Assembly: GCA_009838845.1 (NCBI GenBank) | Contig: VXRD01000140.1 | Span: forward strand, 1 to 63,907 | DNA from: Gemmatimonadota bacterium | GTDB lineage: Bacteria; Latescibacterota; UBA2968 | Direction: 5' to 3' | DNA length: 63,907 nucleotides | Shown here: positions 14,631-56,984 of the stretch, in pieces | Numbering within the stretch: position 1 is the stretch's first letter | Layout: the number at the start of each line of letters is the position of its first letter | Translations under genes and position numbers: made by a program | Notes under the pieces: model-generated | Seen by the model: the letters and a program-made list of their open reading frames with translations, nothing else | Databases searched by the model: none | What the model was told of the DNA's origin: nothing

Positions 14631-14666
14631 AGTAAATATAAAAGTGTTTGCAAATGGCTCTTATTC

Positions 14667-14697
14667 AAAAAAAAAGGCGACCCTTAGCGGATCGCCT
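14667..14697 (-). terminator. Rho-independent terminator of the glutaredoxin gene
   Basis: On the minus strand, AGGCGATCCGCTAAGGGTCGCCT folds into a hairpin and is followed by a run of nine T. It begins 25 bases after the glutaredoxin stop codon. Confidence 0.85.
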
Positions 14698-14722
14698 CAC
14701 TGTAAAAACCACCACCTTGTAT

Positions 14723-15088: not shown

Positions 15089-15221
15089 TGAAAAACCTCC
15101 TGAAAAATGATACTACGGGTCTGATCTTGTTCTCTACTAATGTACAAAAAATCGCATATATGGCAAGGATTCTTATTGTCTATTCGTTTTTAAGAGTCCG
15201 CTGGCCTTTACTTCCCATCAA

Positions 15222-16169: not shown

Positions 16170-16172
16170 TTC

Positions 16173-16271
16173 TTACTTCCCACTTCTTCCTTCTCGACGG
16201 CGCGCTTTAAGGCGTTTTTTTCGCCTCTGTCGCCTTCGGCGAAGCTCTTTTCTGCGTTCACTACCCGCCAT
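16173..16271 (-). CDS. Small basic peptide, 32 residues
   Basis: This ORF encodes 32 residues, about half of them Arg or Lys (MAGSERRKELRRRRQRRKKR and onward). AGGAAGG lies four to five bases before the ATG and overlaps the stop codon of the barrel-protein gene, so translation is likely coupled. The next gene starts three bases after its stop. Such size and charge are typical of a nucleic-acid or ribosome-binding peptide, but I recognise no family. Its tight packing between two genes argues that it is real. Confidence 0.6.
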   Translation of the reverse strand: MAGSERRKELRRRRQRRKKRLKARRREGRSGK

Positions 16272-16280
16272 AAAACCTTC

Positions 16281-16868
16281 CTATTCATTACCAAAGCGAA
16301 AACCAATTGTGAATTGCAATGCACTATCTTTTTCATCGTCGGCAATGATGAGTTTCATCTCGCCAAACCAGGCCAGCATCGGACTCAATTTGCGCTGATA
16401 CCCCAATGGCAAATTCAAGCTGATTTTGGTATCGTTTTGGGGGCCATCTACCGACTCTTCTACCGCTGACTCAGATTCTATAGCATCAGATGCTATTTGG
16501 GGGCGAAAGAAGTGGGTTCCAAAACCACCACCGAAATAGGCTCGTCCGACTGGCGTTTGATGAAAAAAGTAAACGACATCCAGATTGACGGCATAAACGC
16601 GCAAATTCTCCTGTGCCGCGATATCCAGGCCTGGAAGCAGATGCAATTTGGGCAACATAACAGATCCCAGATCGAGATTGCCCCCGATCATCCATCGGTG
16701 AGAGTCAAACTGCCCACCCATGCCGTAAAAGGTATCAAACTGAGGTTCGCGCGTCAGACTCACCCCCGCTTTGACATGCAACCCCAGGGCATCGGACATT
16801 TGAGGAATACACAGCACCATCAAAGCTGCCAGTCCCCAGGCAGCGAATATTGAAATCACTCGATTCAT
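16281..16868 (-). CDS. Outer-membrane beta-barrel-like protein
   Basis: A 195-residue secreted protein. The ATG at 16868 is chosen because GGAAAGGGGG precedes it and a good signal peptide follows (MNRVISIFAAWGLAALMVLC, cleavage near MSDA). The mature part alternates polar and hydrophobic residues with Gly-rich turns (YFGGGFGTHFF) and ends in FTIGFRFGNE, as in small outer-membrane barrels. The function is unknown. It begins 47 bases after the molybdenum-subunit gene on the same strand. Confidence 0.8.
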   Translation of the reverse strand: MNRVISIFAAWGLAALMVLCIPQMSDALGLHVKAGVSLTREPQFDTFYGMGGQFDSHRWMIGGNLDLGSVMLPKLHLLPGLDIAAQENLRVYAVNLDVVYFFHQTPVGRAYFGGGFGTHFFRPQIASDAIESESAVEESVDGPQNDTKISLNLPLGYQRKLSPMLAWFGEMKLIIADDEKDSALQFTIGFRFGNE

Positions 16869-16915
16869 GTTACCCCCTTTCCTTTGGATTGGATGTCTAT
16901 TCAATTCCTCACAAA

Positions 16916-41550: not shown

Positions 41551-41578
41551 GGAGCGATCAGCTTGTATTCTTCTTTAT

Positions 41579-42955
41579 CTATTCGTCCATCATTGCCTCG
41601 ATCCTCGCCCGATAGCTCTCATTCTCTTCAGGCCATTCCACAATCTCTGCATCTGGCGCATTAGTCTCGGGCAACCACTGCACCAGAAGTTCTTTGACCT
41701 CGCGCAGTCCCGGACTGTGCGCCAGATTTTCCCATTCCATCTCGTCATGTCTGTGATCGTAAAGCTCTTCTGACCCATCTGCATAGCGGATATATCGCCA
41801 TCGCTCAGACCGTATGGCATGATTGCCACGCCCGTGTGTGGTGATTGCGGGAAAGGGCCAGTTGCGATTGGGATTTTCCATCAGAGGCACCAGACTTCGG
41901 CCTTCCAACCCTGTACGATCAGACAAGCCGCACAACGCAATCAGCGTGGGATAAATATCGATCAATCCCACTGGCTTTGAACAGGTGCCGGGCGAATAAC
42001 CTGGGGCTGAAATAAGCAAGGGCACGCGCGAGGCTTCTTCCCACAATGTGCTCTTTTTCCAGTGGCTTTTTTCGCCCAAATGCCACCCGTGATCTGCCCA
42101 CAAAACAATTGCTGTATTCTCTGCATAAGCACTTGCATCCAGTGCATCTATCAATCGTCCAATTTGCGTATCCACAAAACTGATACACGCCAGGTAACAC
42201 CGAATCGCTTCTTTCCATTGGCCTGCTTCTACGATACGCGCATGCGGTTTTTGATTTGCCCATCGCTGCGCGATTTCGGGAACATCGTCCAGATCATTCT
42301 CCACTGTCTCTGGTAGATGGAGATCATTCAGGTCATAAGCCTCTATATATTTCCTCGGGACATGCCACATCAGATGTGGCAGCTTAAACCCACACGTCAA
42401 AAAGAAGGGTTCTTCGTGTCTCGCCTGCAATTGCTCAACACAATAACTCACAGCTTTGTAATCCTGCATATCTTCATCGGCAACATCCATCGGACCCCAG
42501 TCCAGATTGCCCATACCCGCCATGCCATTTACGGGATGATGATCGGGTCCCGCGCCGGAATGTGACTGATTAAACAAACTCGGCACATAAGAATCCCACG
42601 ACATTGGATCGGGAAATTTGCCGTGATACACCTTGCCACTACCCGTTGTAAAATAGCCATTTTGCCGAAAGTGCTGTGGCAAAGTCACGCAATTTCTTCC
42701 CGCTTCCGAAAATCTGAGCGGCTGTCGATTGTTATAAACCCCCGTAGTGGATGGCCGCAAACCACTCATCAAACTCGCCCGAGATGGATTGCAAATCGGC
42801 GCTTGACAATACGCGCGTTCAAATACTGTACATCGCTCGGCCAGCCGATTAAAATGAGGGGTCACAGCATTTGGAGCGCGATCTAAAAATCCCACATAGT
42901 GATTTAAATCATCAAACGAAATGAACAACACATTTGGTTGATCTTCTTGTACCAT
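41579..42955 (-). CDS. Formylglycine-type sulfatase, iduronate-2-sulfatase-like
   Basis: A 458-residue sulfatase starting at the ATG at 42955 (GAGAGGTGA upstream). The signature CNPSRASLMSG near residue 55 supplies the Cys converted to formylglycine. Metal ligands lie in FISFDDLNHY and WADHGWHLGEKSHWKK; the latter, with Lys, is typical of iduronate-2-sulfatase and choline-sulfatase-type enzymes. No signal peptide is visible, so a cytoplasmic substrate or atypical export is implied. It releases sulfate from a sulfated sugar or small ester. It is convergent with the DUF6785 gene. Confidence 0.95.
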   Translation of the reverse strand: MVQEDQPNVLFISFDDLNHYVGFLDRAPNAVTPHFNRLAERCTVFERAYCQAPICNPSRASLMSGLRPSTTGVYNNRQPLRFSEAGRNCVTLPQHFRQNGYFTTGSGKVYHGKFPDPMSWDSYVPSLFNQSHSGAGPDHHPVNGMAGMGNLDWGPMDVADEDMQDYKAVSYCVEQLQARHEEPFFLTCGFKLPHLMWHVPRKYIEAYDLNDLHLPETVENDLDDVPEIAQRWANQKPHARIVEAGQWKEAIRCYLACISFVDTQIGRLIDALDASAYAENTAIVLWADHGWHLGEKSHWKKSTLWEEASRVPLLISAPGYSPGTCSKPVGLIDIYPTLIALCGLSDRTGLEGRSLVPLMENPNRNWPFPAITTHGRGNHAIRSERWRYIRYADGSEELYDHRHDEMEWENLAHSPGLREVKELLVQWLPETNAPDAEIVEWPEENESYRARIEAMMDE

Positions 42956-43033
42956 ATTCTCACCTCTCAATAATTTGGACACTTTTTCAGAATAGCCACA
43001 GAAAGCACAAACTTTCAGACGCTCAAATTATTC

Positions 43034-43064
43034 GCGTCTTCTTGTACCATATTTTCATTTCTCG
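43034..43064 (-). pseudogene. Remnant of a duplicated sulfatase gene start
   Basis: TCTTCTTGTACCATATT here repeats the start region of the sulfatase gene (42942-42958) 94 bases away. On the minus strand it still reads ATG GTA CAA GAA GAC (MVQED), as in the real gene, then diverges and stops after 11 codons. This looks like the scar of a local duplication or of a second, deleted sulfatase gene. Confidence 0.5.
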
Positions 43065-43097
43065 CATATAGGTTTGACATACCGCCTAATTTTTAAG

Positions 43098-43128
43098 TTT
43101 GCCTTTTACCTTTTACCTTTTACCTTTT
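43098..43128. repeat. Short tandem repeat (CCTTTTA)
   Basis: GCCTTTTACCTTTTACCTTTTACC is a run of 7-mers just upstream of the Gfo/Idh/MocA gene start. Similar short tandem runs border several genes in this window. Confidence 0.6.
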
Positions 43129-43164
43129 TTGCGCCTTGTTGGACAAACTACAGGAGGTCCTCCG

Positions 43165-44175
43165 ATGAACGCGATTGCCGTGATAGGAACGGGCTATATC
43201 GGTGGCGAACACATCAAAGCCATCTCAGTGCATTCCAATGCACATTTGCGAACAATATGTACAACGCCGCGCAGCGAACAAATCGCAAGAGATCTGCAAG
43301 CGACATACGGCGCAGATAAAATATCGACAGAGTACGATAGCGTCCTATCTGACGCCGAAATCGACATCATTTATCTCTGCACGCCCAACTCTCAACACGT
43401 AGATCAAGCCGTCGCCGCGCTCGATGCGGGCAAGCACGTCTTCGTGGAAAAACCCCTCGCGGTTACAGTTGAAGACTGTCAAAAAATCGTCGATGCAGCC
43501 AAACGATCCGGGCGACAAGTTATGGTTGGTCACGGCGCGCGATTTAGCAACATATTTGAAACCATTTACCACCTCGTTCACAACGGTACGCTGGGAGAAG
43601 CCTGTTTTGTGGAAGGCGACTACATCCACGACCTCAAACCCTTCTTGCCTCTGCCCGGTCACGACTGGTGGATGGATACAGAAAAAGAAGGCCAACTGCC
43701 CATTATCGGTGGGGCCTGCCATCCCCTGGACCTCATGCGATGGCTCGCTGGAGAAATCGTTGAAGTCAGCGCGTATGGCATAAACAAAAATATTCCCGAC
43801 GCACCCTGGTACGACACGGTTATCTCAAACTTAAAATTTGAATCCGGTGCCCTGGGCAAATGCCTGGTCTCTTGCGGCGCAGAAATTCCCTATAACCTCA
43901 ACTTTAGCTACCACGGCACAAGAGGCTCTATTCACAACAACAAACTCTTCATCGGCGGTATGCCCCACGTCGAAGAATGGTCTGAACTCCCAATTGAAAT
44001 TCGCGCAGAAGACCATACGTGCCTCCAGGAACTCGACCACTTTCTATCCTGCATTGAGCGAGGCGTAAAACCGCTTATCGACGAGATTGACGGTGCGAGG
44101 TCAGTCGCCGTATGCTGCGCCATCATTGAATCCATTGAAAACAATCGCCCGGCAACCGTATTCCTGGATTTTTAA
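43165..44175 (+). CDS. Gfo/Idh/MocA family oxidoreductase
   Basis: A 336-residue dehydrogenase-type protein. The ATG at 43165 is preceded by AGGAGG. Rossmann motif IAVIGTGYIGGEHIKAI, catalytic-region EKPLAVTVEDCQ (about 93-104) and the GGACHPLDLMRWLAG segment with His and Asp are all present. It probably oxidises a sugar or cyclitol with NAD(P). It starts an operon with a GNAT gene three bases on and a second family member further downstream. Confidence 0.94.
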   Translation: MNAIAVIGTGYIGGEHIKAISVHSNAHLRTICTTPRSEQIARDLQATYGADKISTEYDSVLSDAEIDIIYLCTPNSQHVDQAVAALDAGKHVFVEKPLAVTVEDCQKIVDAAKRSGRQVMVGHGARFSNIFETIYHLVHNGTLGEACFVEGDYIHDLKPFLPLPGHDWWMDTEKEGQLPIIGGACHPLDLMRWLAGEIVEVSAYGINKNIPDAPWYDTVISNLKFESGALGKCLVSCGAEIPYNLNFSYHGTRGSIHNNKLFIGGMPHVEEWSELPIEIRAEDHTCLQELDHFLSCIERGVKPLIDEIDGARSVAVCCAIIESIENNRPATVFLDF

Positions 44176-44178
44176 ACT

Positions 44179-44682
44179 ATGAATAATCGCACAAGCAGCA
44201 TCCGCATGCACCGCTCTCTCAGCCATCCACTTCCCGAATACACTGAGCCTGAAGGCTTCACAATTCGTGTGCTTCAGCCCGGAGAAGAAGAAGAATGGAT
44301 TCGCATGAAAAATGAAGCTTTTGGCGATGAAGGCGGAAAACCCTGGACCATCGACAATTTTCACTCCACATTCACTCGCGAACCGTGTTGCGACTACAAT
44401 CGCATCTTTGTCGGCCTCAAAGGCGATTATATGGTAGCAACTGCCAGCGCGTGGGAAGCCCATTACGGAGGAAAAACAGTTGGCCTTATCCACTGGGTTG
44501 GTACCGACCCCAAATACCGAGGACATGGACTCGGTTATGCCATCTCACTTCTCGCCCTCAAAGAACTCGTTGCCCGCGGATATGCCGACGCCTATCTCAA
44601 CACAGCCCTCTGGCGTGAACCCGCTGTGCGCCTCTACAAACGCCTGGGCTTTCGCATCACCCCAAAAACCGAAGACACCTGA
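44179..44682 (+). CDS. GNAT family N-acetyltransferase
   Basis: A 167-residue acetyltransferase. The acetyl-CoA pyrophosphate loop is GTDPKYRGHGLGYAI (about residues 110-124), matching RxxGxG, and the C-terminal LNTALWREPAVRLYKRLGF is typical. The substrate is probably a small amine, perhaps an amino sugar given the neighbours (inference). The gene lies between two sugar-dehydrogenase-type genes and starts three bases after the first. Confidence 0.92.
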   Translation: MNNRTSSIRMHRSLSHPLPEYTEPEGFTIRVLQPGEEEEWIRMKNEAFGDEGGKPWTIDNFHSTFTREPCCDYNRIFVGLKGDYMVATASAWEAHYGGKTVGLIHWVGTDPKYRGHGLGYAISLLALKELVARGYADAYLNTALWREPAVRLYKRLGFRITPKTEDT

Positions 44683-44710
44683 TCCACCCATCCAGTAAAC
44701 GGAGAACGCG

Positions 44711-45703
44711 ATGAAAACTCCTATTCGCATTTTGCTCGTCGGTTGCGGGCGCATGGCTTTAGGCCATGCCAGCGGTTTGGAATCCCTGGGAGAACTCGGC
44801 GTCATTATCGCCGGTGTTGATCCATCCGAAGACGCACGCAATAATCTAAAAACCCAATATGGTGTGTCAACTACCTTTGACAACCTCGACGACGCGCTTG
44901 CAAACGTGGAAGCAGATGCTGCAATTATTGCCGTGCCCAACTTCCTGCACCGCGATTACACCATTGCCTGTCTGGAAAAGGGGTTGCACACCCTCATCGA
45001 AAAACCCATGGCGCTTACCCTCGCAGATGTCGATGACATGATCGCTACAGCCGAAGCCAAAGGCAAATTGCTCATGTCTGGACAGAGCCAGCGTTTTTCA
45101 ACAGCGATTCGCCAGGTCAAAAAGCTACTCGAAGAAAAAGCTGTGGGAAAAATTCGCCACGTCATCCACCGCAGACTCGGATCGGGTCGCGGCGGCGACG
45201 AAAATAGCTGGTTTGCGCGTCAGGAATTGTCGGGCGGCATTCTACCCGGCATTGGCGTCCACTCGCTCGATGTACTCTTATGGTGGATAGACGAAAAAGC
45301 CGTATCCGTCTCGGCAATCGTGCAAAATATCGATCCACACCCCGATATCGACATTGAAGACGAAGTCTCCCTCATCGCCACAACAGAAAGCAATGCCATC
45401 CTCAACTGCGCCCTCTCATTTCACCATCGTGCAGGCACGGAATGGACCGTAATGGGCGATGAAGGCGTCATTCACCTCAACGGCACCAGCGGACCTTTAT
45501 TGCTCAATGGCAAAGAACAGCACATACCCGAAACCGTTCACCTCGCTGGCGAACCCACCATTCACCTCGAATTTCTCACAGCCATCCGCGACAATCGCCC
45601 CCTCGCGCAAGCATCAGCGCAAGATGTACGCAAAACAATGGCACTCATCTTTGCCTCAATGGAATCGGGTAAAACTGGAAAAACTGTATCTGTTTCCAGA
45701 TAG
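44711..45703 (+). CDS. Gfo/Idh/MocA family oxidoreductase
   Basis: A 330-residue member with ILLVGCGRMALGHASGLE at the N-terminus, EKPMALTLADVDDMIA in the middle, and GILPGIGVHSLDVLLWWI, in which the usual Asp-His pattern is kept as HSLDVLLW. ACGGAG precedes the ATG. It shares an operon with the upstream dehydrogenase and GNAT genes, and is convergent with the SelA-like gene. The substrate is unknown. Confidence 0.94.
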   Translation: MKTPIRILLVGCGRMALGHASGLESLGELGVIIAGVDPSEDARNNLKTQYGVSTTFDNLDDALANVEADAAIIAVPNFLHRDYTIACLEKGLHTLIEKPMALTLADVDDMIATAEAKGKLLMSGQSQRFSTAIRQVKKLLEEKAVGKIRHVIHRRLGSGRGGDENSWFARQELSGGILPGIGVHSLDVLLWWIDEKAVSVSAIVQNIDPHPDIDIEDEVSLIATTESNAILNCALSFHHRAGTEWTVMGDEGVIHLNGTSGPLLLNGKEQHIPETVHLAGEPTIHLEFLTAIRDNRPLAQASAQDVRKTMALIFASMESGKTGKTVSVSR

Positions 45704-45723
45704 CGCTCTGGTCTCCAAATGGC

Positions 45724-47184
45724 CTATTGCCTCATCGCCCGCCATCTCGCTGTGCCGTATTCGCGCTGATTCAACGGCCCGGGAGCAGACTGTCCCGAAC
45801 TGCCCATTTCAACTTCGCCGCGCATTTCGTCCCCCAACACCGTTCCCACAAACCGATAAGACAGATGGGTTCCCTCAAACCGATGCTGGCTCGTAAATGC
45901 GATTTCATCTCCATTCACCGAGCCATTTAGCGCATTTTTTAGCCAGCGCGTCTGGTGAGTACCCGTTAAAACGCCAGCAATTTGCTCGATATCCACGCGA
46001 TGACGCGCTGTTTTTCTCACCAGCGCGATTTCAATTTCCCATGCACCCGACACATCAACAGGTTCTCGCACCTTTTCTTTTTTGAGCAAAGGCGCGTGGG
46101 ATAATGCATCGCGAATGTGTATGCCAACAATATCTGCTTCCCCAGGTTGTAGCGAAAATGGTAAAATAAAAATAGACGTATCCGTTGCCCCTCGATCATC
46201 CAGCATAATGCGTGGATCACCGCACAAAAGTTGTTCGCGCAATTCAAGACCGGTCAGGCCAATGCGATCACCATCCCAACGGATTTCCACCCTGGGAACA
46301 TCCGACTGATCAGACGCTAGAATTTCAGCTTCTACACCCGATACACGCGTCACATGCCGCACAATCGTCTCGAGATCGGCAATCCAGCCCTCGAATTCCC
46401 GCCTGGGATCGCGTCCCACCAGCAGATATTCTACGGCCGCTAAAATGCCCATAACCTCCTCTTTGCCGATCTTCATCGCACGCCCAAGCGTGTGATGCGG
46501 TGCTGCGTGCACCCAGGCGGCCTCGACGAGGTCGCGATCGCCCAATAACAAGCCCGTAGGCTGAGGTCCGCGCAGGTATTTGCCACCGCTATAAGCGACC
46601 AAATTTGCTCCGCGACTGGTATATGGTTCAGGAGATTGGAAATGCTCCGACGCTGCATCGACCAGCACAGGGACACCTCTCGGACGCGCCATGTCAACAA
46701 TCGCTTCAAGCGTCATATCCGCCTCCCAGGTCCCCAGCAAGGCGACCATAGCCACCTGTTCCCGATCGAGCACCACATCCATTTCCCTGAGATTATCCAC
46801 CTCCACGATTGTCACGCCCACCGAACGAATGGCGTGATCATAGGTAAATCGACTTGCTCTGGGCATGACGACCTCGCGCTTCATCCCACTCGTATCGGGC
46901 AACCGAAACATCAACTCGGGATCGCCACCCGTCACACATGCTGCTGTTGCATGACACAGGCATGCCGCCGCGCCAGAGGCCACCATTCCCCACTCCGCTC
47001 CCGTGAGCATGGCCAATCGCTTACCCACTCCCGCCATGAGTTCATCCATATTGACAAAAAAGCGCGAAGCAGCCATCATCGCTTCGCGCACCTGCGGCAA
47101 CATCAGCGTCCCTCCGTGAATTGTTCGCGTCCCACAGCAATTGATAAACGAGCGCACACCAATCAGTGAATAGGGATCCTGCAT
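45724..47184 (-). CDS. SelA-like PLP-dependent enzyme with C-terminal beta domain
   Basis: A 486-residue protein; the ATG at 47184 follows GGAGGAG. Residues about 1-375 are a fold-type I PLP enzyme of the SelA/DgaE type (RSFINCCGTRTIHGG, ASGAAACLCHATAACVTG, VLVDAASEH, and the PLP Lys in YSGGKYLRGPQPTGLLLG). Relatives include selenocysteine synthase-like proteins and D-glucosaminate-6-phosphate ammonia lyase; an ammonia lyase or racemase role is more plausible than selenocysteine synthesis. Residues about 376-486 form an extra domain (VSGAWEIEIAL, GVLTGTHQTRWL, LSYRFVGTVLGDEMRGEVEMG) that reads like a lipocalin-type beta sheet; this addition is unusual. Confidence 0.88.
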   Translation of the reverse strand: MQDPYSLIGVRSFINCCGTRTIHGGTLMLPQVREAMMAASRFFVNMDELMAGVGKRLAMLTGAEWGMVASGAAACLCHATAACVTGGDPELMFRLPDTSGMKREVVMPRASRFTYDHAIRSVGVTIVEVDNLREMDVVLDREQVAMVALLGTWEADMTLEAIVDMARPRGVPVLVDAASEHFQSPEPYTSRGANLVAYSGGKYLRGPQPTGLLLGDRDLVEAAWVHAAPHHTLGRAMKIGKEEVMGILAAVEYLLVGRDPRREFEGWIADLETIVRHVTRVSGVEAEILASDQSDVPRVEIRWDGDRIGLTGLELREQLLCGDPRIMLDDRGATDTSIFILPFSLQPGEADIVGIHIRDALSHAPLLKKEKVREPVDVSGAWEIEIALVRKTARHRVDIEQIAGVLTGTHQTRWLKNALNGSVNGDEIAFTSQHRFEGTHLSYRFVGTVLGDEMRGEVEMGSSGQSAPGPLNQREYGTARWRAMRQ

Positions 47185-47200
47185 CGTCAATCTCCTCCTG

Positions 47201-47219
47201 TGCAAATTTTTAAATTGCA
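47201..47219. promoter_or_regulatory. Imperfect palindrome between divergent genes, possible operator
   Basis: TGCAAATTTTTAAATTGCA lies in the 98-base region between the divergent SelA-like and bicupin genes. The symmetry (TGCAA/TTGCA) suits a regulator site, but AT-rich palindromes occur by chance. Confidence 0.3.
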
Positions 47220-47282
47220 GTATAAGACAATCGTATTAACTTAGATAATCCGAAAATTCTTTCACACTTACAAGAGGCAAAC

Positions 47283-48014
47283 ATGGCATACATCAAAAAC
47301 TGGCGAGACCAGCAACCCGAGGTGGCGCACCTGAGCGCGATTCGCTGGCCGGGGTTAAGACAGAGAAATGCGGAACCCAAACACGGTGAAGACGACTCAC
47401 CTCAGTTACACAATATTCAGGGCATCGTCAAACACGGACTTCAAGGACGCAAAACCTCCGACCACCACAAACACGCACAAATGGAACAGGCGTATTATAT
47501 CATCAGCGGCAGCGGCGAGGTCCTCGTGGGAGAAGACCGCTTTGCCGTACGTCCCGGCGACGCCGTGTATTTGCCCGCGGATATTTACCATCAGATGTTC
47601 AACGACATGAACGACGAATGGCTCGAGCACCTCGTCCTTAGCAAAAATATCGACACCGAACCCGGGGGCGAATGTGTGATTCGCAACTGGGAAGACGTTT
47701 TACCCGTAAGCGATGGCGCAGGCGCGATTCGCTGGCATCAACTCGGCCCTGCAGGCGAAGAAAACACAGGATGCTTAAAATCCATTGCCTTCATCGACCG
47801 CGAAGCCGTACAACCCGGTCAGCAGAGCATTGCGCGATGTTACGACGGTATAGAACTCGGCTTCTGGATCCTCGAAAACAGGGGCATCCTCGTCACATCT
47901 GATGGTGAACAGCACATCACTGAAGGCGATGTGGTTCACTTACCCCCTGGCATGTCCTATCACATCAAAAATCCCCACAGCGAATGGTTTAGCTATATGA
48001 TTATTGCCGGATGA
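47283..48014 (+). CDS. Bicupin protein
   Basis: A 243-residue protein with two cupin barrels. The first (about 50-125) has HHKHAQMEQAYYIISGSGEVLVGE and RPGDAVYLPADIYHQM, giving a HxH(x)nE metal site and a final His. The second (about 160-243) has EGDVVHLPPGMSYHIKNP but few metal ligands and may be structural. It could be an isomerase, a lyase or a dioxygenase acting on a sugar acid; the context of sugar-dehydrogenase and PLP-enzyme genes supports carbohydrate metabolism. It is divergent from the SelA-like gene and followed by a terminator. Confidence 0.9.
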   Translation: MAYIKNWRDQQPEVAHLSAIRWPGLRQRNAEPKHGEDDSPQLHNIQGIVKHGLQGRKTSDHHKHAQMEQAYYIISGSGEVLVGEDRFAVRPGDAVYLPADIYHQMFNDMNDEWLEHLVLSKNIDTEPGGECVIRNWEDVLPVSDGAGAIRWHQLGPAGEENTGCLKSIAFIDREAVQPGQQSIARCYDGIELGFWILENRGILVTSDGEQHITEGDVVHLPPGMSYHIKNPHSEWFSYMIIAG

Positions 48015-48036
48015 AAAGAAATGATGAGTAAAAAAA

Positions 48037-48082
48037 AGCCCCATCCAAGATCGTGCAAGCGATTTTAGACGGGGCTTCTTTC
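48037..48082 (+). terminator. Terminator after the bicupin gene
   Basis: Arms AAGCCCC and GGGGCTT with an inner ATCG/CGAT stem, 22 bases past the bicupin stop. The trailing sequence is CTTCTTTC. It separates the bicupin gene from the motor-like operon. Confidence 0.75.
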
Positions 48083-48177: not shown

Positions 48178-49479
48178 ATGATATACGTGGAGATTCCTTA
48201 TTACATGTCCAAATACCGAGAATACATGGCACAGATTCTAAATCATCCCATTCTAAAAAAAAGTCCCATTGCCCAGGTAGCACTCTATCTCGCTACCCTT
48301 TTTGTTGGCCTCTATATCTGCACAAAAGCGGCGATCTGGCTCGATGGAGCTATCACCGGACTGCAAGGTGGGCAAGTCCTTCAGGGAGGAACTTTTTGGA
48401 AGGCACTTACCGTCACATTCCAACAACCCGACAATCCAAAGCAAAAAATTGCAGTCACGGATATCCGCTTTAAGAATGTAGATCGTTTTTTACCCATCGC
48501 CGTAATCGTACACACACAGGGAAGTGACGTAACCTATCATACCGGTACGCAACGCGAATGGATCGCAATACCCGACGTGCCCGTCGATAGCCTCGTCATT
48601 CGTACGCGCAACGCCAGCCACAGTGCGGTGATTGACGATTTGAGCTTTCAGTACAACAACCGGAGCTATGCGATGGACTTTGACCATACAGCCGATGGTC
48701 CTATTGCGCCCAATACGCAGATGCTCGAATACAAGTTTGAGGACATCCAAATCGCATTTGCAGCCGACAATGCCGTACCCACGGTTGTTCGCGGCGGTGA
48801 TTTGGCCGAATCCATCGGACGCTATATCTCCAACATCAGCGGTCCACTTTCTACGGTTTTGATCTTGCTCTTGATTGCCCTGCCCTTCTATATGGTTGTG
48901 CGCTATGCTCAGGTTTTATCTCACGACTTATCACCCGACCGCTTCTTCACCAATTCCGATGCGCAAATCGTTCAGAAGCAGGGTATTAACCTGCTATGGG
49001 GCGGTCAATACAACGCCGATTACGCCCTATCTGAAAACACAGAACTCTATGCTATCCTTACATCTGTCGAATCTGAAATCGCATCTGACCAGGCCCGATT
49101 GGTCGAGCGATGCACCGACAAAATCTATCTTCTCTTTGATGAAATTGAAGATCGCCTATCCGAAGGATTTGGCATGTTGGGACTTTTATCGCTCTCCATG
49201 GGCCTTTTGGGCACAGTGATTGGCATGATAGACGCCTTCAAAATTTTAGAAGACACCATGAAAGTCGGCGAAGGCCCAGCTCAAACCCAGCTCAAAATGG
49301 CGCATTATATCAACTTTGCCCTCGTCACCACAGCTATTGGATTTCTCGGACGCATTCTATCCATGATCCTCATACGCAAAACCAAAGCCCGCAGCCTGCA
49401 ACATCGGGCGCGCATGCTCAACCTTGTTCAGCACTTTTATCAGATAGATACAGGCGAGAGAAAAGAAATAGGAGATTGA
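48178..49479 (+). CDS. ExbB/TolQ/MotA-family proton channel protein with extra periplasmic domain
   Basis: A 433-residue membrane protein. Residues 31-54 form a first span, 55-222 a predicted periplasmic beta-rich domain, 223-242 a second span, 243-331 a cytoplasmic loop, and 332-352 and 377-399 the last two spans. The last two carry the ExbB/TolQ channel signatures GLLGTVIGM and ALVTTAIGF. Canonical ExbB has three spans and no such domain, so an extra span and periplasmic domain have been added at the N-terminus. It probably conducts protons with the ExbD-like product encoded one base downstream. The start is uncertain: ATGs at 48205 and 48226 are alternatives. Confidence 0.9.
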   Translation: MIYVEIPYYMSKYREYMAQILNHPILKKSPIAQVALYLATLFVGLYICTKAAIWLDGAITGLQGGQVLQGGTFWKALTVTFQQPDNPKQKIAVTDIRFKNVDRFLPIAVIVHTQGSDVTYHTGTQREWIAIPDVPVDSLVIRTRNASHSAVIDDLSFQYNNRSYAMDFDHTADGPIAPNTQMLEYKFEDIQIAFAADNAVPTVVRGGDLAESIGRYISNISGPLSTVLILLLIALPFYMVVRYAQVLSHDLSPDRFFTNSDAQIVQKQGINLLWGGQYNADYALSENTELYAILTSVESEIASDQARLVERCTDKIYLLFDEIEDRLSEGFGMLGLLSLSMGLLGTVIGMIDAFKILEDTMKVGEGPAQTQLKMAHYINFALVTTAIGFLGRILSMILIRKTKARSLQHRARMLNLVQHFYQIDTGERKEIGD

Positions 49480-49480
49480 C

Positions 49481-50011
49481 GTGAGACATCGCAACAGGCG
49501 ACCTTTGGCAGCACTTTTAGACACGGGCGAAGGGTTTATTGATGTCTTGTTTTTGCTGCTTACATTTTTTATCATTCAGAACGTGTGGCAAACCCATCTC
49601 GCCAATTTGCACAACCGCTTTGTCCACGCACAAAAACTCAATTTTATCAAAGCACCCGACGAAAAAGGCTCTGCCCCCCATCCCACGGATGAACGATTTT
49701 TACAGATCATCATCGGTAAATCCTATGTGCAATTTGACAAAGGCGGCGTTGCCACCGAAGAACACATGGTCTTTCAAGACCGCGCAGACAACGACCAGAT
49801 TGGTATTGAACGCGCTGTATTTTTGTCCGTAAAAAAAGCTTTACTCGCACTACAGGCACAACATGGATTTGCGCCCAATGACATTTTGGTGCGCCTCTAT
49901 TTTGAACGCGATGCAACCGTGACTTATACCGTTGGCGTGTACGACGCCCTCAACAACAGTGGATTTAAGACTGTGCAATGGGGGCTTGAAAGTCAAAAAA
50001 GAAAGTTGTAA
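49481..50011 (+). CDS. ExbD/TolR-like protein
   Basis: A 176-residue single-span protein starting at a GTG with AGGAG six bases upstream. The span FIDVLFLLLTFFII (about residues 19-32) contains the essential proton-carrying Asp of ExbD/TolR (Asp21 here). The periplasmic part (about 40-176) includes FLQIIIGKSYVQFDKGG and NDILVRLYFERDATVTYTVGVYDALNNSGF, matching the ExbD pattern of a variable-residue loop and final helix. It should pair with the preceding channel gene product to form an ion-driven motor. Confidence 0.88.
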   Translation: MRHRNRRPLAALLDTGEGFIDVLFLLLTFFIIQNVWQTHLANLHNRFVHAQKLNFIKAPDEKGSAPHPTDERFLQIIIGKSYVQFDKGGVATEEHMVFQDRADNDQIGIERAVFLSVKKALLALQAQHGFAPNDILVRLYFERDATVTYTVGVYDALNNSGFKTVQWGLESQKRKL

Positions 50012-50019
50012 AATAGAAT

Positions 50020-51387
50020 ATGTCTCCCCGTGAAAAAAAAATGATCCAGAGCGCTGCTGAAAGCATGCGACGAGATCATCCCAAATTCTTTGGCGTGTTA
50101 TCTGCCATAATGCGCGCTCGCAACTTATCTGAGGCACGCCGAGCATGTAATTATCCCTCGTCCGAAGACTTTACAAGCGTCTATCACCGGGCCATCGAAT
50201 ATCTCTTCAAACAGTTGCGTGACCTGGGGTATGTCCCCCCATCGGAAACCGAGAGCTTTGAGGAAAGCATAGGGCAGAGTGCGCCATCGAGCCATTTCAA
50301 ATTGCCCTCACGCGAAATCATCAATCGCTTCTACAAAGGCCATATCTTCCACGAAGCATGCGCGCTTGTGGCCATACAGAATCACCTGGGGCTTTCCAAA
50401 CTCTGGGCGCACTTCCCCAAGCGCCGGCATGAAATAGAAATCGCCATCGCCCTTGTTCCGGTCCGGGCGATAGTCCCTCAACCACAGTCCATTCGCTTGT
50501 CCCATACCCCTATTCAACGCACACAACAACGCTTTTTGTCCGCATTGGCCGGTGCGTTTGCACTGGGCATCGTCTTGCTATTAGCACTCAGTCCTCCTCA
50601 GGGAGGGCGGGCATTCAAAGCCATTGTCACAAATTTTGAAGATATGCTCGTAAGTGCGCAGGGCATCTTTGACATGAGCAAAAACGCACGAGAAGACGTC
50701 AACGTAACAAAACCAGATCCAGAACCCCGGGTGCAGGCTGCCCCAAAGCCAGCGCCTCGTCCTAAAATCGCGCTGCCGGACAAACCGAAATTGGCACTCG
50801 CATCTTTGCCCGATATTCCGCGTCAACTCGATAAGCCGCTCGGCATGTCGCTCGATGGATTGAAAACACCACCTCGCGTCTCGACACCCAACATGGACAG
50901 AGGTGCAAACCCATCGTCGTTTTTTGGTTCGCGGCCAGAAGTCCACGTCGCTCGCGCTACTATGAGTATGCCCGCCCCTGCCACATTGCCATCAACTGGC
51001 GCGAGCGCAGGCAAAGATCAGCCCGAGCAACAAGCAGAATCTACCGATCTCAAAGGCTACCGACCTGCTGGACGCATTGGTTTTTCCAACTTTCATACAT
51101 CGGGTGGTCTCTCGGCAGAACTCGTGCGGCTGACCCGTATCCAGCGCGCACTTTCTCGACTGAAAATACCTCAAAACAGAATCTATGAAAATGCCCAACT
51201 CGCATTGGCTCCAGACAAAGCCAGAATACAATTTGCCGACGGTGTTGCATTTATCCTCACATTTCGGCTGGGCCAACTCGACGACATTCAGATTTTTGCA
51301 CGCTCGGGCATAGACAAAGCCCTTCACATAGAAACCGAAGCGCGCCGGGGCATCCGCTTTCTCAACCGCGCCCTGAGCAATTCGTGA
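50020..51387 (+). CDS. TonB/TolA-shaped envelope protein with cytoplasmic domain
   Basis: A 455-residue protein with a soluble N-terminal domain of about 170 residues (helical, rich in Arg and His), one span at about 172-191 (FLSALAGAFALGIVLLLAL), a Pro/Lys/Ala-rich stretch at about 230-275 (PKPAPRPKIALPDKPKLAL) and a C-terminal domain from about 345. The layout matches TonB or TolA, but the C-terminal sequence does not match TonB_C and the large cytoplasmic domain is absent from TonB. It probably carries force from the preceding channel pair to an outer-envelope partner (inference). Confidence 0.8.
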   Translation: MSPREKKMIQSAAESMRRDHPKFFGVLSAIMRARNLSEARRACNYPSSEDFTSVYHRAIEYLFKQLRDLGYVPPSETESFEESIGQSAPSSHFKLPSREIINRFYKGHIFHEACALVAIQNHLGLSKLWAHFPKRRHEIEIAIALVPVRAIVPQPQSIRLSHTPIQRTQQRFLSALAGAFALGIVLLLALSPPQGGRAFKAIVTNFEDMLVSAQGIFDMSKNAREDVNVTKPDPEPRVQAAPKPAPRPKIALPDKPKLALASLPDIPRQLDKPLGMSLDGLKTPPRVSTPNMDRGANPSSFFGSRPEVHVARATMSMPAPATLPSTGASAGKDQPEQQAESTDLKGYRPAGRIGFSNFHTSGGLSAELVRLTRIQRALSRLKIPQNRIYENAQLALAPDKARIQFADGVAFILTFRLGQLDDIQIFARSGIDKALHIETEARRGIRFLNRALSNS

Positions 51388-51395
51388 GGTCGCTT

Positions 51396-52775
51396 ATGAA
51401 AAAAATCTTCCTTATCTTCTTCGCTTTTTTGATTTTGCCAGCCCTTTCTTTTGCGCAGGGGAAGGATGACAGCCTCGCCTATCAGTCTTTTGAGCAGGGC
51501 CGCAGTGCTTACGCACTTGGGCGATATATTGAAGCCGTCGCACATTTTGAGCGTGCGTGCAACCAGGCTCTCATCTTTACCAGTGCCTATTATATCTGGC
51601 TGGGCACGGCAGGCGAGCGTGCCTACGACACGGGTCAGGACGCGCCCAACCGATTGGACCTGCTCAGAAAAAGTGCCGACGCCTACCGCACGGCGCTCGA
51701 CCGCGAGCAAGACCCCGATATTCGCTACGAATTGGGACGTCTCACCGTCAAATACGCGATGGCGCGTGCCAACTTCGTGCTTGAGCGCGAAAGCAACCGC
51801 CAACCTCTGCCGCTGGATTTGCCCCCGCCAGTATTGCGAGACAGCACCTGGATACCCACGCGCTTTCAACCCGCAACAATTGACTCCCTGCACCGAATAT
51901 GGCATCTCGCAGAGGGTGGTCTGCGCGACATTTGGATGGCGATTCTCGGCAGAACGCAAAAGGAAATTGTCTATGCTGCGCCGCAACGCAGCACCATGAG
52001 TGACACCCTTCAGGCTTATTTAAGCGTCTATATCGAAAACAGCCTGAACCTGATCGAGACCGCCGGACAGGCCAATTTTGAAGGCATAGAACCCGATTTT
52101 TACATCCCCAAAATTGCCGCCGCATCTTCTCGCGGCGTTTTGGGCGATAACCCCGACTGGTTCAATCAAGTGCTCGCTGCCGCGCGCTTTGATGGCGGTT
52201 ATAACATGCGCTGTGCCATCTACCGCCTCAAGGGATTGCGCCACAGCAAAGAAGAAGAAGCCAACCGCGCAATCCACGCCATGCAACGCGCCCTGGTCTA
52301 TGCGAGATCCGATACCTCTCGCGCCGCCCTCTATCTCGACATGGCCTTCACCGCGTACCGAGACGACTTGCCCAGAGCCGTTGAATATGCCAAATACGCA
52401 TACGCGCACAACCAATACGAACCGAGAGTGTGCGATACCTATGGCGGGCTTTCGCTCAGTTTGGCGAGTGTAAAACTCAAAGAAGGCGCGTACCGCGAGG
52501 CGATTTCAACCATTTATCCCGTGACATCCTTTGGATGGCAAGACCGCGGCGAAGCCCTGATCACCCTGGCGATTGCCTATTTCAACTCCGACCTACAAAA
52601 TGTGGGAGCGAGAGCATACCAGGCCGCGGAAATGGCCTATCGCATTGCGCCAGAACGCTACTGGAAAGAATTTCATCGCATCGCCAAAAGTCAGGGCAAC
52701 TATGTGCAAGCGCGTCAACTCGAAGAAAAGCACAGCAGCGCGTTGCTCAGCAAAAAACAGGACACCTCCCCATGA
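51396..52775 (+). CDS. Secreted TPR-like repeat protein
   Basis: A 459-residue exported protein; the ATG at 51396 follows GAGGT, and a GTG at 51384 overlapping the previous stop is an alternative. Signal peptide MKKIFLIFFAFLILPALSFA. The mature part is helical with TPR-like units: YQSFEQGRSAYALGRYIEAVAHFERA (about 30-55), AMQRALVYARSDTSRAALYLDMAFTAYRDDLPRAVEYAKYAY, and GAYREAISTIYPV. It lies inside the motor-like operon, where TPR proteins usually serve as periplasmic scaffolds. Its stop overlaps the start of the PEGA gene (ATGA). Confidence 0.88.
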   Translation: MKKIFLIFFAFLILPALSFAQGKDDSLAYQSFEQGRSAYALGRYIEAVAHFERACNQALIFTSAYYIWLGTAGERAYDTGQDAPNRLDLLRKSADAYRTALDREQDPDIRYELGRLTVKYAMARANFVLERESNRQPLPLDLPPPVLRDSTWIPTRFQPATIDSLHRIWHLAEGGLRDIWMAILGRTQKEIVYAAPQRSTMSDTLQAYLSVYIENSLNLIETAGQANFEGIEPDFYIPKIAAASSRGVLGDNPDWFNQVLAAARFDGGYNMRCAIYRLKGLRHSKEEEANRAIHAMQRALVYARSDTSRAALYLDMAFTAYRDDLPRAVEYAKYAYAHNQYEPRVCDTYGGLSLSLASVKLKEGAYREAISTIYPVTSFGWQDRGEALITLAIAYFNSDLQNVGARAYQAAEMAYRIAPERYWKEFHRIAKSQGNYVQARQLEEKHSSALLSKKQDTSP

Positions 52776-54472
52776 ACACCCTGAGATTCATTTTTTTTTG
52801 CATCCTGCTGACCACACCGCTCCACATCCAGGCTCAAGAAACAGAGCCTGTGCCGAGGATGCTTTTCAAGACGAAAATCCACATTCGCTCAGAACCCACA
52901 GGTGCTCAGGTCTTCATCAATGGGCAGGAAGCGGGTTATACGCCATTTGTCACAGAAAAGCTACTGGACATTGGCGATAAAATTCAGGCGTATGCACACG
53001 GCTACCAGCCCTGGACGCGCACATTTACGACAACCGTTTTGGCAGATACGGTGCATATCGCGCTCATACGTCAGAAAGCGCATTTGGAGATCCGATCTGA
53101 TCAACTCGCGGCCTTAGGCGCAGAAATCCACCTTCGGTTTGCAGATCAAGACACGACCATCACCGGGTTTATCAACATCGGACGCGGCAATGTGGCTTAT
53201 GAGTCGGACCTTTTTGTGGGCAAATACCGCCTCGAAATCAGTAAACCCGGCTTTAACCTCATCGAACAAGACCTCTTTCTGCCCCCGCGTGGCAAACTCA
53301 TAGAAATTAGGCTTACCCGCAATCCGCTGCCACTCACGGAATTGTCCATCCCCGGTCTCGTGGATATCGCAGACCAATACCTCGCCGAAAGCGCGCAACT
53401 CCTCGAGGCTGCCCTGGCCATTGGCGAAACAGTCCCCGCGGTTGAAACCAATGCGTCTATCCGCCTCAGCGACTCGCGCCTGACGCCTTTTATCGAAGAC
53501 CTGAAATACTATAGCCACCAGACGCGCGAATTAGAACTCACGCTGAGTCGCCTGGGACAAAGCGAAATCGGCGTGCTGCGCGCCCTCGCGCAAATTGATG
53601 TGTACCATGGTATTGTGCTCGGCAAATACCGCCGCTTCTCAGAAGCGCACGCGCTCTTCCGAGAAGCCCGAGAGCGTTCTCCTTTTCCCATTGAACAAGA
53701 ACCCAATCCCCTTCCAGGGGAAAACGAGTCCAGTCTGGGCGATCTCACGCGCTTTGCCGAACAATGGCACACGCGTCTCGGTCGATTAGATGTCAACGTA
53801 AATGCGGCCTGGCTCGCCATTCGCAACATGCACCCCAACACCCTGCGCTTTGAACAGGTGCGCTTCACGCGAGAAGCACCCGTGCCCCCCGCCACATCAC
53901 CGCACGAACAAGCCATGTACGATAGCCTCACTACCCTTGCCGAACACATCTTAAACGAGAATATCGCCAATCGGGAGCAAGAGTTTTCTCTCACCCTTCC
54001 CAAAGGCCATTACATGCTCAAAGATACGCAAAACATGGCCATTCCCATTTCATTCCGAGTTTCCGATGCCCCCACTTTTCTACCCATCTCACCGCGCGTC
54101 AGCCTGTGGTTGCCCACCGCCAAAACCGCGTCGGATACGGTTCGCTTGCAAACCGTCGTCGGGGACGAACTCGGCCCGATTGTTCAACCCGACCAAATTA
54201 CTTTTGGCCGAGAATACGCACTTCTGGTCAAAATGGGCGATTACAAACGCCACCGCGAAAACATCATCCTCTATCCTGCAAGCGGCATCAAACCCGTCTG
54301 GCCCGGCGTCACCGCCATTGCAGCGACCCCAGGTACGGAATGCCTGTATTACAAAACAGGAAATGAAAAATTGGAAACATCTATCCTCGGCAACATCCAA
54401 GGCAAACGCAGCGGACTGCTCAAATACTTGCTCCTCCCCATCGTAGGGATAGGCGTTGCCCTCGCGCTGTGA
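52772..54472 (+). CDS. Secreted PEGA-domain protein with C-terminal membrane anchor
   Basis: A 566-residue exported protein starting at the ATG at 52772, which overlaps the previous stop by four bases. Signal peptide MNTLRFIFFCILLTTPLHIQA. A PEGA domain at about 37-95 reads IHIRSEPTGAQVFINGQEAGYTPF, and a second related segment (about 95-180) includes GKYRLEISKPGFNLIEQDLFL. A helical region is at about 190-300, a further beta part is at about 400-530, and the C-terminus has one hydrophobic span (LLKYLLLPIVGIGVALAL). PEGA domains often bind surface or cell-wall partners. It is the last gene of the operon and is followed by a strong terminator. Confidence 0.88.
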   Translation: MNTLRFIFFCILLTTPLHIQAQETEPVPRMLFKTKIHIRSEPTGAQVFINGQEAGYTPFVTEKLLDIGDKIQAYAHGYQPWTRTFTTTVLADTVHIALIRQKAHLEIRSDQLAALGAEIHLRFADQDTTITGFINIGRGNVAYESDLFVGKYRLEISKPGFNLIEQDLFLPPRGKLIEIRLTRNPLPLTELSIPGLVDIADQYLAESAQLLEAALAIGETVPAVETNASIRLSDSRLTPFIEDLKYYSHQTRELELTLSRLGQSEIGVLRALAQIDVYHGIVLGKYRRFSEAHALFREARERSPFPIEQEPNPLPGENESSLGDLTRFAEQWHTRLGRLDVNVNAAWLAIRNMHPNTLRFEQVRFTREAPVPPATSPHEQAMYDSLTTLAEHILNENIANREQEFSLTLPKGHYMLKDTQNMAIPISFRVSDAPTFLPISPRVSLWLPTAKTASDTVRLQTVVGDELGPIVQPDQITFGREYALLVKMGDYKRHRENIILYPASGIKPVWPGVTAIAATPGTECLYYKTGNEKLETSILGNIQGKRSGLLKYLLLPIVGIGVALAL

Positions 54473-54495
54473 GAATGCAACCAGGCCAAAAAACA

Positions 54496-54528
54496 AAAAA
54501 GCACCCGTTTTTTATTCGGGTGCTTTTT
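54496..54528. terminator. Bidirectional terminator between convergent operons
   Basis: AAAAAGCACCCG and CGGGTGCTTTTT form a perfect 12-base stem with a nine-base loop, ending in T-runs on both strands. It separates the plus-strand motor-like operon from the minus-strand CBM9/DUF5916 gene. Confidence 0.93.
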
Positions 54529-54560
54529 GTTAATTTTAAATTTCTGTGATAATGCCTATC

Positions 54561-56984
54561 TCACAACCCAATCAAATACGACACCTTGAGCAACACGGCT
54601 CGGCTGGTCTGGTGTAAGTCGTCATCGGTTCCAAACCCGTGATCATAGACAAAGAAAATATCGCTGCCCGGACGGAAACGGTAGTTGAGCAAAAAGTTTG
54701 CGCCCACGGATTCGCTGTCACTATTCCACTGCGCGAAAATTTTAAAAAAGAAATCGGTTGTAAACGAGTAAATCAACCGCGTACTCAATGCCTGAATATT
54801 GAGATTGGCCTGTGGCAAGCGAATCCAATTGCCATCGTAAATCAGCTCAATACCCAATCTGCCATTGGGCCGATAGGCGTTCTCTGCCGTCACCCGATAC
54901 AGGTGTCCTGTATAATAAGTCCCCACCAGAAAATCAAAGTCCAACTGCAATTTGCGATAATTTGCCGTATCCGGTCCCAGCCTGAACGATGTAAAAGTAT
55001 ATTCTTCTGGCGGAATGGCGACATCGGGGCGCTTGCTCGATGGTCTAAAAGTCCGCGTAACGACATCGCGGGTCCTCTCCACACGCACCAAAAAGCGATC
55101 AGCCGTCTGAAGGGCGAGCACACCGTCAAGTCTGAACCGCTGGAACGGCACTTCACCTTCGTCGTCTTCAATCACCTGGATATCGGGTGTGAACCGCAAA
55201 TTGCGGATATTGGCTACTTTGGGACGCGGCAAATAGGATAGATTGACATTGTAGCGCCGAAATCCCCGAATGCCACGCCGGCGATTGACAAACCCGGTCT
55301 CTGGCTCAAAATTGTCCTCCACATCCAGAACAGTTGCTGAACCCGCGTATTTGGTCCCGCTATACGAGAAGCGAAGATACCGAGCGTCATCCACATCCTC
55401 TTGCTCCGTATCCCAGGTACGCGCGTAAAACGCCTGCACATTGACCGCGGTTGAAGGCGAAAAACTGAAATCCAGCCCCCCTGCGCGATTGTAGTCGCCC
55501 CACCCGCCTTCGGACACTTCGCTTTGTTTATTCACCCAGATAAATCCCACATTGGACCGCGCGAGTACATCTCGTTTGATCCGAAGTACGGAAAAATTCC
55601 TGCGCGGTAGCGTCTGTGTGTCCAACTTTTCAGAATCCGTCAGAACATTTAACGCACCAATACTCGTGCGCCCGGCTTTGCCAGCCAACTTGCCACCTGC
55701 GAGAATCGGCACGGGCTGCCCCCTATCCAGACCAATTTTCCTGCTGTAAAACAGCAGCGTTGGCGGGCGCCTATCTCCCCCTCGAGTTGACGCGGCCTCG
55801 CCAAAATCAAACAACTGTGCCCCCTCCAGGAAAAACTCGCGCTTTTCGGGAAAAAACTGGGAAAACTGCGTCAAATTGACCTGCTCTTGATCGGCTTCGA
55901 CCTGGGCAAAATCCGTATTATAAGACACATCCAGCGCGAGATTGGACGTCAGGCCATAACGCACATCTGCACCCGCTTCAAACGTGCGATTTTCACCCTC
56001 ATCGCCTGCAAAATTGCGCGAAGTTCCCGGCAACACATACGGCTTGACCTGAAAAAGCCGCTTTCTCTCAACTGCCTTTAAGCCTCGCAACACACCCATA
56101 TCGGTCATCTGATATCGCCGCCGGGGCGAGGGCGTGTGCCGTCCGACAATAAACGCGGTCTCTTCGTTCTTGTGCCCGATATAACGACCCATGTTAATCC
56201 CCCATTCCATCTCATCAGACGGGTTGAAACGGAGTTGATCAAACGGAATCGCTATTTCGGCAGTCCAGCCTATCTCGTGGCGCACACACCGCGCCTCCCA
56301 GATACAATCCCAATCTTCATTCGTCGTTCGCCCTTCATTTGACAAAAGCATATCTGCCCGCGCGCCGAGCGCATTGATAATAAAGAAAACCCCATTCTGT
56401 TTGTCATTAAACGGATCGAGCAACAACTGGATATTATCATCACCAGAAAGCTGAGAATCTCGGCGCATATTATTGGTAACAATGAGGCCGGGATTTTTGT
56501 CGTAACATTCAAAACCGAAATAAATTTTTTCATTATCGTAAATAATTTTCACAACTGTCCGCTCAGTCACCGGCATCCAGTATTTCGGATCGCGTTGAAC
56601 AAATCCCTCCGCGGCCTGTGCCTGTCGCCAAACCGCATCGTCCAACCGTCCGTCAATGCGCGGTGCAGCAGAAACCCGCATCGCATGTACTACCCTGCGC
56701 GGCGATCCTGCAAGCGTACCATCATCCACCTGAGTCCGATCCCCGGATTTTACCGGCGAACCATTTTCCTCAACCACGCGTGCAACCACCACATTGGACA
56801 ACACCTTGATCACCTGCAAAACCGCACCATCATCGCCTGCAACCCGCAATTTGCCATCCAGATCAGCCGAAAGCCCTTTTACATAGACGAGATCACCCAC
56901 TACCTGTTGCACAGTACCCTGTGCATATATATGATCGGGAATTGCAATTGTTATCAGTGCGAAAAATAATATCCGAAAACGCAT
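54561..56984 (-). CDS. CBM9-like plus DUF5916 outer-membrane protein
   Basis: An 807-residue exported protein from the ATG at 56984 (AGGAGGTG upstream), signal peptide MRFRILFFALITIAIPDHIYA. Residues about 100-290 resemble the CBM9-like carbohydrate-binding fold (APRIDGRLDDAVW, VKIIYDNEKIYFGFECYD, GWTAEIAIPFDQLRF). The rest, from about 310, matches the DUF5916 barrel type: SYNTDFAQVEADQEQVNLTQF, FFPEKREFFLEGAQLFDFG, and repeated beta strands ending in LLKVSYLIGL. An extra N-terminal segment of about 70 residues (VGDLVYVKGLSADLDGKLRV) is of unknown role. Probably an outer-membrane polysaccharide- or peptide-handling protein. Confidence 0.9.
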   Translation of the reverse strand: MRFRILFFALITIAIPDHIYAQGTVQQVVGDLVYVKGLSADLDGKLRVAGDDGAVLQVIKVLSNVVVARVVEENGSPVKSGDRTQVDDGTLAGSPRRVVHAMRVSAAPRIDGRLDDAVWRQAQAAEGFVQRDPKYWMPVTERTVVKIIYDNEKIYFGFECYDKNPGLIVTNNMRRDSQLSGDDNIQLLLDPFNDKQNGVFFIINALGARADMLLSNEGRTTNEDWDCIWEARCVRHEIGWTAEIAIPFDQLRFNPSDEMEWGINMGRYIGHKNEETAFIVGRHTPSPRRRYQMTDMGVLRGLKAVERKRLFQVKPYVLPGTSRNFAGDEGENRTFEAGADVRYGLTSNLALDVSYNTDFAQVEADQEQVNLTQFSQFFPEKREFFLEGAQLFDFGEAASTRGGDRRPPTLLFYSRKIGLDRGQPVPILAGGKLAGKAGRTSIGALNVLTDSEKLDTQTLPRRNFSVLRIKRDVLARSNVGFIWVNKQSEVSEGGWGDYNRAGGLDFSFSPSTAVNVQAFYARTWDTEQEDVDDARYLRFSYSGTKYAGSATVLDVEDNFEPETGFVNRRRGIRGFRRYNVNLSYLPRPKVANIRNLRFTPDIQVIEDDEGEVPFQRFRLDGVLALQTADRFLVRVERTRDVVTRTFRPSSKRPDVAIPPEEYTFTSFRLGPDTANYRKLQLDFDFLVGTYYTGHLYRVTAENAYRPNGRLGIELIYDGNWIRLPQANLNIQALSTRLIYSFTTDFFFKIFAQWNSDSESVGANFLLNYRFRPGSDIFFVYDHGFGTDDDLHQTSRAVLLKVSYLIGL

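Follow-up and report, generated by a model that had tools for sequence, protein, structure and literature searches.

Ion-driven motors of 5:2 make-up serve bacteria in nutrient uptake, swimming and gliding and in keeping the envelope stable. An SHLS/His motif docks TonB, TolA and one family of vWA transducers onto such a motor (PMC12204202), and vWA force transducers have been described beside TolQ/TolR-like genes and a gene for a TPR protein (Williams-Jones et al., 2025; PMC12204202). According to the same 2025 survey, further transducer types remain undiscovered (PMC12204202). Cytoplasmic domains also occur on transducers of this kind: GltG of the Agl-Glt system is composed of an FHA domain, a membrane span and TonB domains (PMC3169522).

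We analysed a window of 63,907 nucleotides, the whole stretch of DNA under study, from the 5.75 Mb genome of a member of the Latescibacterota. It contains five closely packed genes on the + strand (48205-54472) that a first-pass annotation had read as a separate motor type linking a cytoplasmic input to an outer-envelope or wall target. The claim of a separate motor type went too far, since the motor subunits fall into known kinds, MotA/TolQ/ExbB and ExbD/TolR, and since transducers with cytoplasmic domains and secreted TPR partners have already been described. The composition that this annotation took to be distinctive has held up better: in each of the 10 other genomes of the genus (10/10), genes 3-5 lie beside genes 1-2, and gene 3 has no match to TonB_C or TolA.

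A compact operon conserved within one genus

Gene 1 (48205..49479) is separated by one base from gene 2 (49481..50011, with a GTG start), which is followed after eight bases by gene 3 (50020..51387). A further eight bases, counted from the ATG at 51396, separate gene 3 from gene 4 (51396..52775), and gene 4 is joined to gene 5 (52772..54472) by an ATGA overlap. The tight packing originally described, with gaps of one to eight bases or ATGA, is thus real, with two starts corrected. That of gene 1 moves from 48178 to the ATG at 48205: the codons 5' of 48205 show no in-frame conservation, the most divergent orthologue uses the equivalent start, and a conserved GGAG precedes it. That of gene 5 moves from 52430 to 52772, the longer frame being closed in L002, L007 and L008.

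The upstream neighbour (47283-48014) is likely split from the operon by a terminator, a + strand stem-loop at the end of that gene (48036..48082; RNA fold -23 kcal/mol, z -5.1). A stem-loop with a T-run, not assigned to a strand, separates the operon from the convergent gene downstream (54492..54531; RNA fold -19.5 kcal/mol, z -5.7) and is likely the operon terminator. A generic terminator scan scored no higher than shuffles, but its loop limit misses both flanking stem-loops, and we therefore take the RNA-fold result as the better evidence. The spot directly 3' of the operon is insertion-prone: the gap is short in the window (54472-54561), and some relatives have 1-3 kb of differing genes there (L002:16289-17624, L003:16272-19562 and L008:16251-19046). 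Small related proteins of ~106-108 aa, Cas2/SinR-like by eye, are encoded near the operon at L008:17320-17640 and L009:9149-9475, on different sides of it.

The five genes keep the same order, with none missing, in 11/11 genomes of one Latescibacterota genus, gene 5 being truncated by the contig end in one of these. Comparison of the orthologues with the window gave dN/dS ranges, from gene 1 to gene 5, of 0.05-0.08, 0.01-0.09, 0.16-0.31, 0.08-0.17 and 0.15-0.27. All five genes are therefore under purifying selection, which is strongest on the motor pair (genes 1 and 2), and the in-order presence in 11/11 genomes together with dN/dS values of 0.01-0.31 confirms that the operon is real, beyond chance. 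An apparent in-frame TAG in gene 1 of G008 was discounted: it sits at the end of the alignment, and the orthologue reads to its own C-terminus with no internal stop. Synteny of the left flank is kept in nearly all of the congeneric genomes, the most divergent (L009) retaining only the two nearest genes. The record names of several genomes of the genus (L002-L009) hint that they may come from marine-sponge metagenomes.

As far as sampled, the operon is restricted to this genus. Full-length proteins matching the profiles of genes 1, 2 and 4 were not found outside it among 64 genomes of the phylum, nor one matching that of gene 3 among 47 genomes of the class; elsewhere, channels of ordinary ExbB size were matched weakly by the gene 1 profile, at about 1e-6 at best. 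Gene 5 has a single relative outside the genus, in a genome from a different family of the same class (L093:392-922 on contig G021:C230), where residues 375-558 align at ~31% identity (E about 1e-24); the hydrophobic tail at the C-terminus can be made out as well. The homology starts ~390 bases into a contig of 6.5 kb. The contig is broken just 5' of the gene-5-like domain, so the upstream genes are not visible, and the absence of genes 1-4 there is not conclusive. The sequence just 5' of the domain is unrelated and AT-rich, and 3' of the domain a large exported protein is encoded, Ig/fibronectin-like in appearance. In a 386-genome sample spanning other phyla, gene 5 gave matches at the level of the PEGA domain only, in eight further genomes, and among the matches listed for the phylum no PEGA gene outside the genus adjoins a MotA_ExbB gene. 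Genes 3 and 5 had no match among plasmids, and a literature search for a system combining ExbB and PEGA proteins found none.

The probable motor pair and the exported proteins

Gene 1 had been called an ExbB/TolQ-like channel with an added periplasmic domain, and the profile and topology agree. The predicted protein matches Pfam MotA_ExbB (PF01618) at E 4.4e-11 over residues 330-412 of a 433-residue ORF, scoring 43.1 bits against a curated cut-off of 22.9 across the last two of four hydrophobic spans (near 31-53, 223-241, 333-357 and 381-399). Spans two to four are the counterpart of the ExbB/TolQ core, to which the first span and a periplasmic domain of ~160 residues have been added. In alignments with the host's other channel proteins its motifs GLLGTV and VTTAIG are in register, and the pore-lining Thr residues of the two C-terminal spans are invariant in the 11 genomes. 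The added domain is beta-sandwich-like in a low-confidence AlphaFold model (mean pLDDT 49), in which its beta strands reach moderate to good confidence. A fold search returned nothing significant at E <= 0.001, and weak matches to beta-sandwiches (carbohydrate-binding modules and a toxin binding domain) were set aside as not significant.

The protein encoded by gene 2 is ExbD-like. Pfam ExbD (PF02472) matches at E 3.7e-4 with 21.0 bits, below the curated cut-off of 25.4, but the span FIDVLFLLLTFF around Asp21 is nearly identical to LIDVLFLLLTFF of the ordinary ExbD at the C168 locus of the same genome. The topology is that of ExbD/TolR, a single N-terminal span bearing the Asp that would carry the proton, and the channel gene is adjacent. 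Asp21 is invariant across the 11 genomes, in which the protein is 86-99% identical. Family membership and motifs support genes 1 and 2 as the probable ion-driven motor core first proposed for this locus, of the MotA/TolQ/ExbB and ExbD/TolR kinds, and the two proteins would presumably assemble 5:2 and conduct ions.

Genes 4 and 5 encode proteins with N-terminal signal peptides in which no lipobox was seen by eye. The description of gene 4 as a secreted TPR-like protein stands as regards export and is weak as regards TPR, the best match (0.0076) being sub-threshold. That of gene 5 as a PEGA protein with a C-terminal anchor is matched by one PEGA domain (E 1.8e-8) and by a C-terminal domain (residues 375-566) with a hydrophobic tail. 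Because of the export signals and the PEGA domain, the target may lie in the outer envelope or wall.

The host has two conventional TonB operons elsewhere in its genome. One, at C45, consists of a TPR gene, ExbB, two ExbD, TonB and another TPR gene, and the other, at C168, of TonB, ExbB and ExbD; the five-gene operon is therefore additional to these and not the sole Ton system of the host. Further motor-like loci were seen in the same genome. A type II Zorya anti-phage locus lies at L054:6516-9418 (G000:C102, about 14515-17417), with profile matches of 2e-106 for ZorA, 2e-98 for ZorB and 7e-82 for ZorE. At L058:1-7289 (G000:C7, about 40000-47290) a MotA-like protein adjoins a vWA-domain protein, and FHA-like, phosphatase-like and two kinase-like proteins are also present by eye, possibly forming a regulated ion-driven module. 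Finally, a MotA_ExbB-family protein (2.1e-6) at L055:8482-10999 (G000:C170) is flanked by a small single-span protein and by an exported protein that Pfam does not recognise, and this motor-like locus is likewise unassigned. Zorya or another defence function was also considered for the five-gene operon itself and was rejected for genes 1-3 and 5, for which PADLOC had no match; gene 4 had a Cas8b match at chance level only (0.0055).

The candidate transducer

Gene 3 was initially characterised as TonB/TolA-shaped, with a cytoplasmic domain of about 170 residues and a C-terminus unlike that of TonB, and each of these features was recovered. A cytoplasmic part predicted to be helical (residues 1-170) precedes a single span (172-190), a linker (~223-344) that is 17% Pro and modelled as low-confidence or disordered, and a compact C-terminal domain (345-455). 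The single span and the Pro-rich, disordered periplasmic linker are what is expected of TonB/TolA transducers. Nevertheless, the protein has no sequence match in Pfam, NCBIfam or the PDB, including no VWA or FHA match in Pfam.

The predicted parts evolve at different rates. The most divergent orthologue is 85% identical over the span and 81% identical over the C-terminal domain; for the linker the value drops to 53%, and for the cytoplasmic parts it is 50-59%. This distribution, with maxima in the C-terminal domain and the span and a poorly conserved linker, is the pattern expected of a transducer, and it suggests conserved working ends in the membrane and the periplasm. A cytoplasmic input to the motor, as the first-pass annotation envisaged, has as its basis the presence of the ~170-residue domain; the fast evolution of that part weakens the case for a specific one.

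Could gene 3 encode a TonB or TolA that has drifted past recognition, in an otherwise ordinary system for outer-membrane uptake or envelope constriction? The ExbB-ExbD-TonB-like gene order, the Pro-rich linker and the overall topology would all fit, and strong sequence divergence is known for TolA and TonB (PMC12204202). However, no TonB_C or TolA C-terminal domain was detected in gene 3 by Pfam/NCBIfam, PDB, hhalign or fold search, while the real TonBs of the host match TonB_C at 1.4e-21 (C45) and 9.5e-6 (C168). Comparison by hhalign with these two TonBs gave a probability of 0.3%, which is weak evidence taken alone as the profiles are shallow. The SHLS/His docking motif was sought in the span, and no His is present in 11/11 orthologues, whereas both real TonBs keep an LH pair in theirs.

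The modelled structure points the same way. The C-terminal domain of TonB has the order alpha-beta-beta-alpha-beta. In the AlphaFold model of gene 3 (mean pLDDT about 49 overall, about 60-87 in the C-terminal domain), the ~110-residue C-terminal domain has the order beta-alpha-five beta-alpha, so that five consecutive strands are followed by a last helix, and it thus appears not to have the TonB topology. A fold search gave nothing significant at E <= 0.001; PH-like folds were among the matches and were set aside as not significant. As profiles and hhalign, the motif of the span and the topology of the model all speak against it, we consider it unlikely that gene 3 is a TonB or TolA. Given the lack of the His/SHLS motif in its predicted span, coupling to the motor may differ from that of TonB and TolA.

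Proposed mechanism and relation to known systems

Based on this analysis we favour, as probable though far from certain, an envelope machine driven by ion-motive force, of the 5:2 TolQR/ExbBD kind, in which gene 3 pulls on or releases a periplasmic assembly of the gene 4 and gene 5 products. Gene 1 would form the pentameric wheel and channel, its additional N-terminal span and beta-domain making a rim on the periplasmic face, and gene 2 would form the dimeric axle, with the ion carried on Asp21. The single span of gene 3 would dock beside the wheel, its Pro-rich linker would cross the periplasm, and the partner that its C-terminal domain pulls on or releases there would most likely be the load-bearing periplasmic part made up of gene 4 (TPR-like) and gene 5 (tail-anchored PEGA). 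We assign force transmission to gene 3 because of its topology, the gene order and the conservation pattern; the order of channel, axle and transducer agrees with that of known TonB/Tol operons, including the C45 locus of the host. We also infer how gene 3 docks and what the load is, and regulation through its cytoplasmic domain and any cellular role are speculative.

A machine for gliding or surface transport, akin to Agl-Glt/Nfs, would be a different use of the same parts; in it, the cytoplasmic domain would control a motor that moves gene 3 along the envelope together with the TPR and PEGA components. It has a precedent in the AglR/Q/S motor, with GltG as a transducer with a cytoplasmic domain and GltE as a secreted TPR protein (PMC3169522, PMC9389320). 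The operon, however, has no FHA, TonB_C, autotransporter-barrel or other Glt-type partner by Pfam, and we found no evidence of motility for the lineage, which makes such a machine distinctly improbable. Least probable of all is a machine that exerts no force, with genes 1 and 2 as a regulated ion channel or sensor read by the cytoplasmic domain of gene 3 and genes 4 and 5 as periplasmic sensors: the large periplasmic beta-domain of gene 1, the cytoplasmic domain of gene 3 and the missing docking His would suit it, but a sensor needs less than complete wheel and axle families with conserved pore and Asp motifs and a linker like that of a transducer.

Within the preferred reading of an ion-driven envelope machine, a bolder proposal is that gene 3, alongside the TonB/TolA and vWA transducers, makes up a third motor-driven class, one that docks in its own way without His, has a C-terminal fold of its own, is linked both to a cytoplasmic domain and to a PEGA/TPR load, and is found in this genus only; we offer this tentatively, as something that could be so but may well not be. 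In any case, an always-linked compact operon with a recognisable motor and an unrecognised transducer and load makes a clean test case. It could show whether a motor couples without the His contact of TonB and TolA, and what else 5:2 motors move in uncultured bacteria.

With ExbB-ExbD-TonB and TolQ-TolR-TolA, the operon shares the channel family, the axle with its Asp span, a single-span third protein with a Pro-rich linker and a small C-terminal domain, and the gene order. It differs from them in the additional span and periplasmic domain of gene 1, in the 170-residue cytoplasmic domain of gene 3, which lacks the coupling His and any TonB_C/TolA match, and in gene 5, the PEGA protein, which has no counterpart there. 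The vWA systems, a class inferred from operon context, likewise have a non-TonB transducer and a TPR gene beside motor genes (PMC12204202), but the C-terminal domain of gene 3 is not a vWA domain and has only ~110 residues, its span is without SHLS/His, and the operon has a PEGA protein where none is mentioned for those systems. Agl-Glt of Myxococcus xanthus (AglRQS, GltG/GltJ and GltE) has in common with the operon a motor, a transducer with a cytoplasmic domain and an exported TPR protein; the FHA and TonB domains of GltG were not found in gene 3, and the remainder of the Glt complex is absent from the operon. The likeness to GldLM of gliding and type IX secretion is that of a 5:2 ion-driven envelope motor, predicted in the case of the operon; the operon differs in that no GldL/GldM-like protein was recognised and gene 2 is small and ExbD-like. 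A motor with a non-standard transducer and a TPR protein is therefore a known theme, seen in Agl-Glt and the vWA operons, and with these analogues at hand we regard the operon as a variant of ExbBD/TolQR systems and not as a new category. What sets it apart from them, judging from the predicted proteins, is the unrecognised transducer, the periplasmic domain added to the channel and the PEGA protein.
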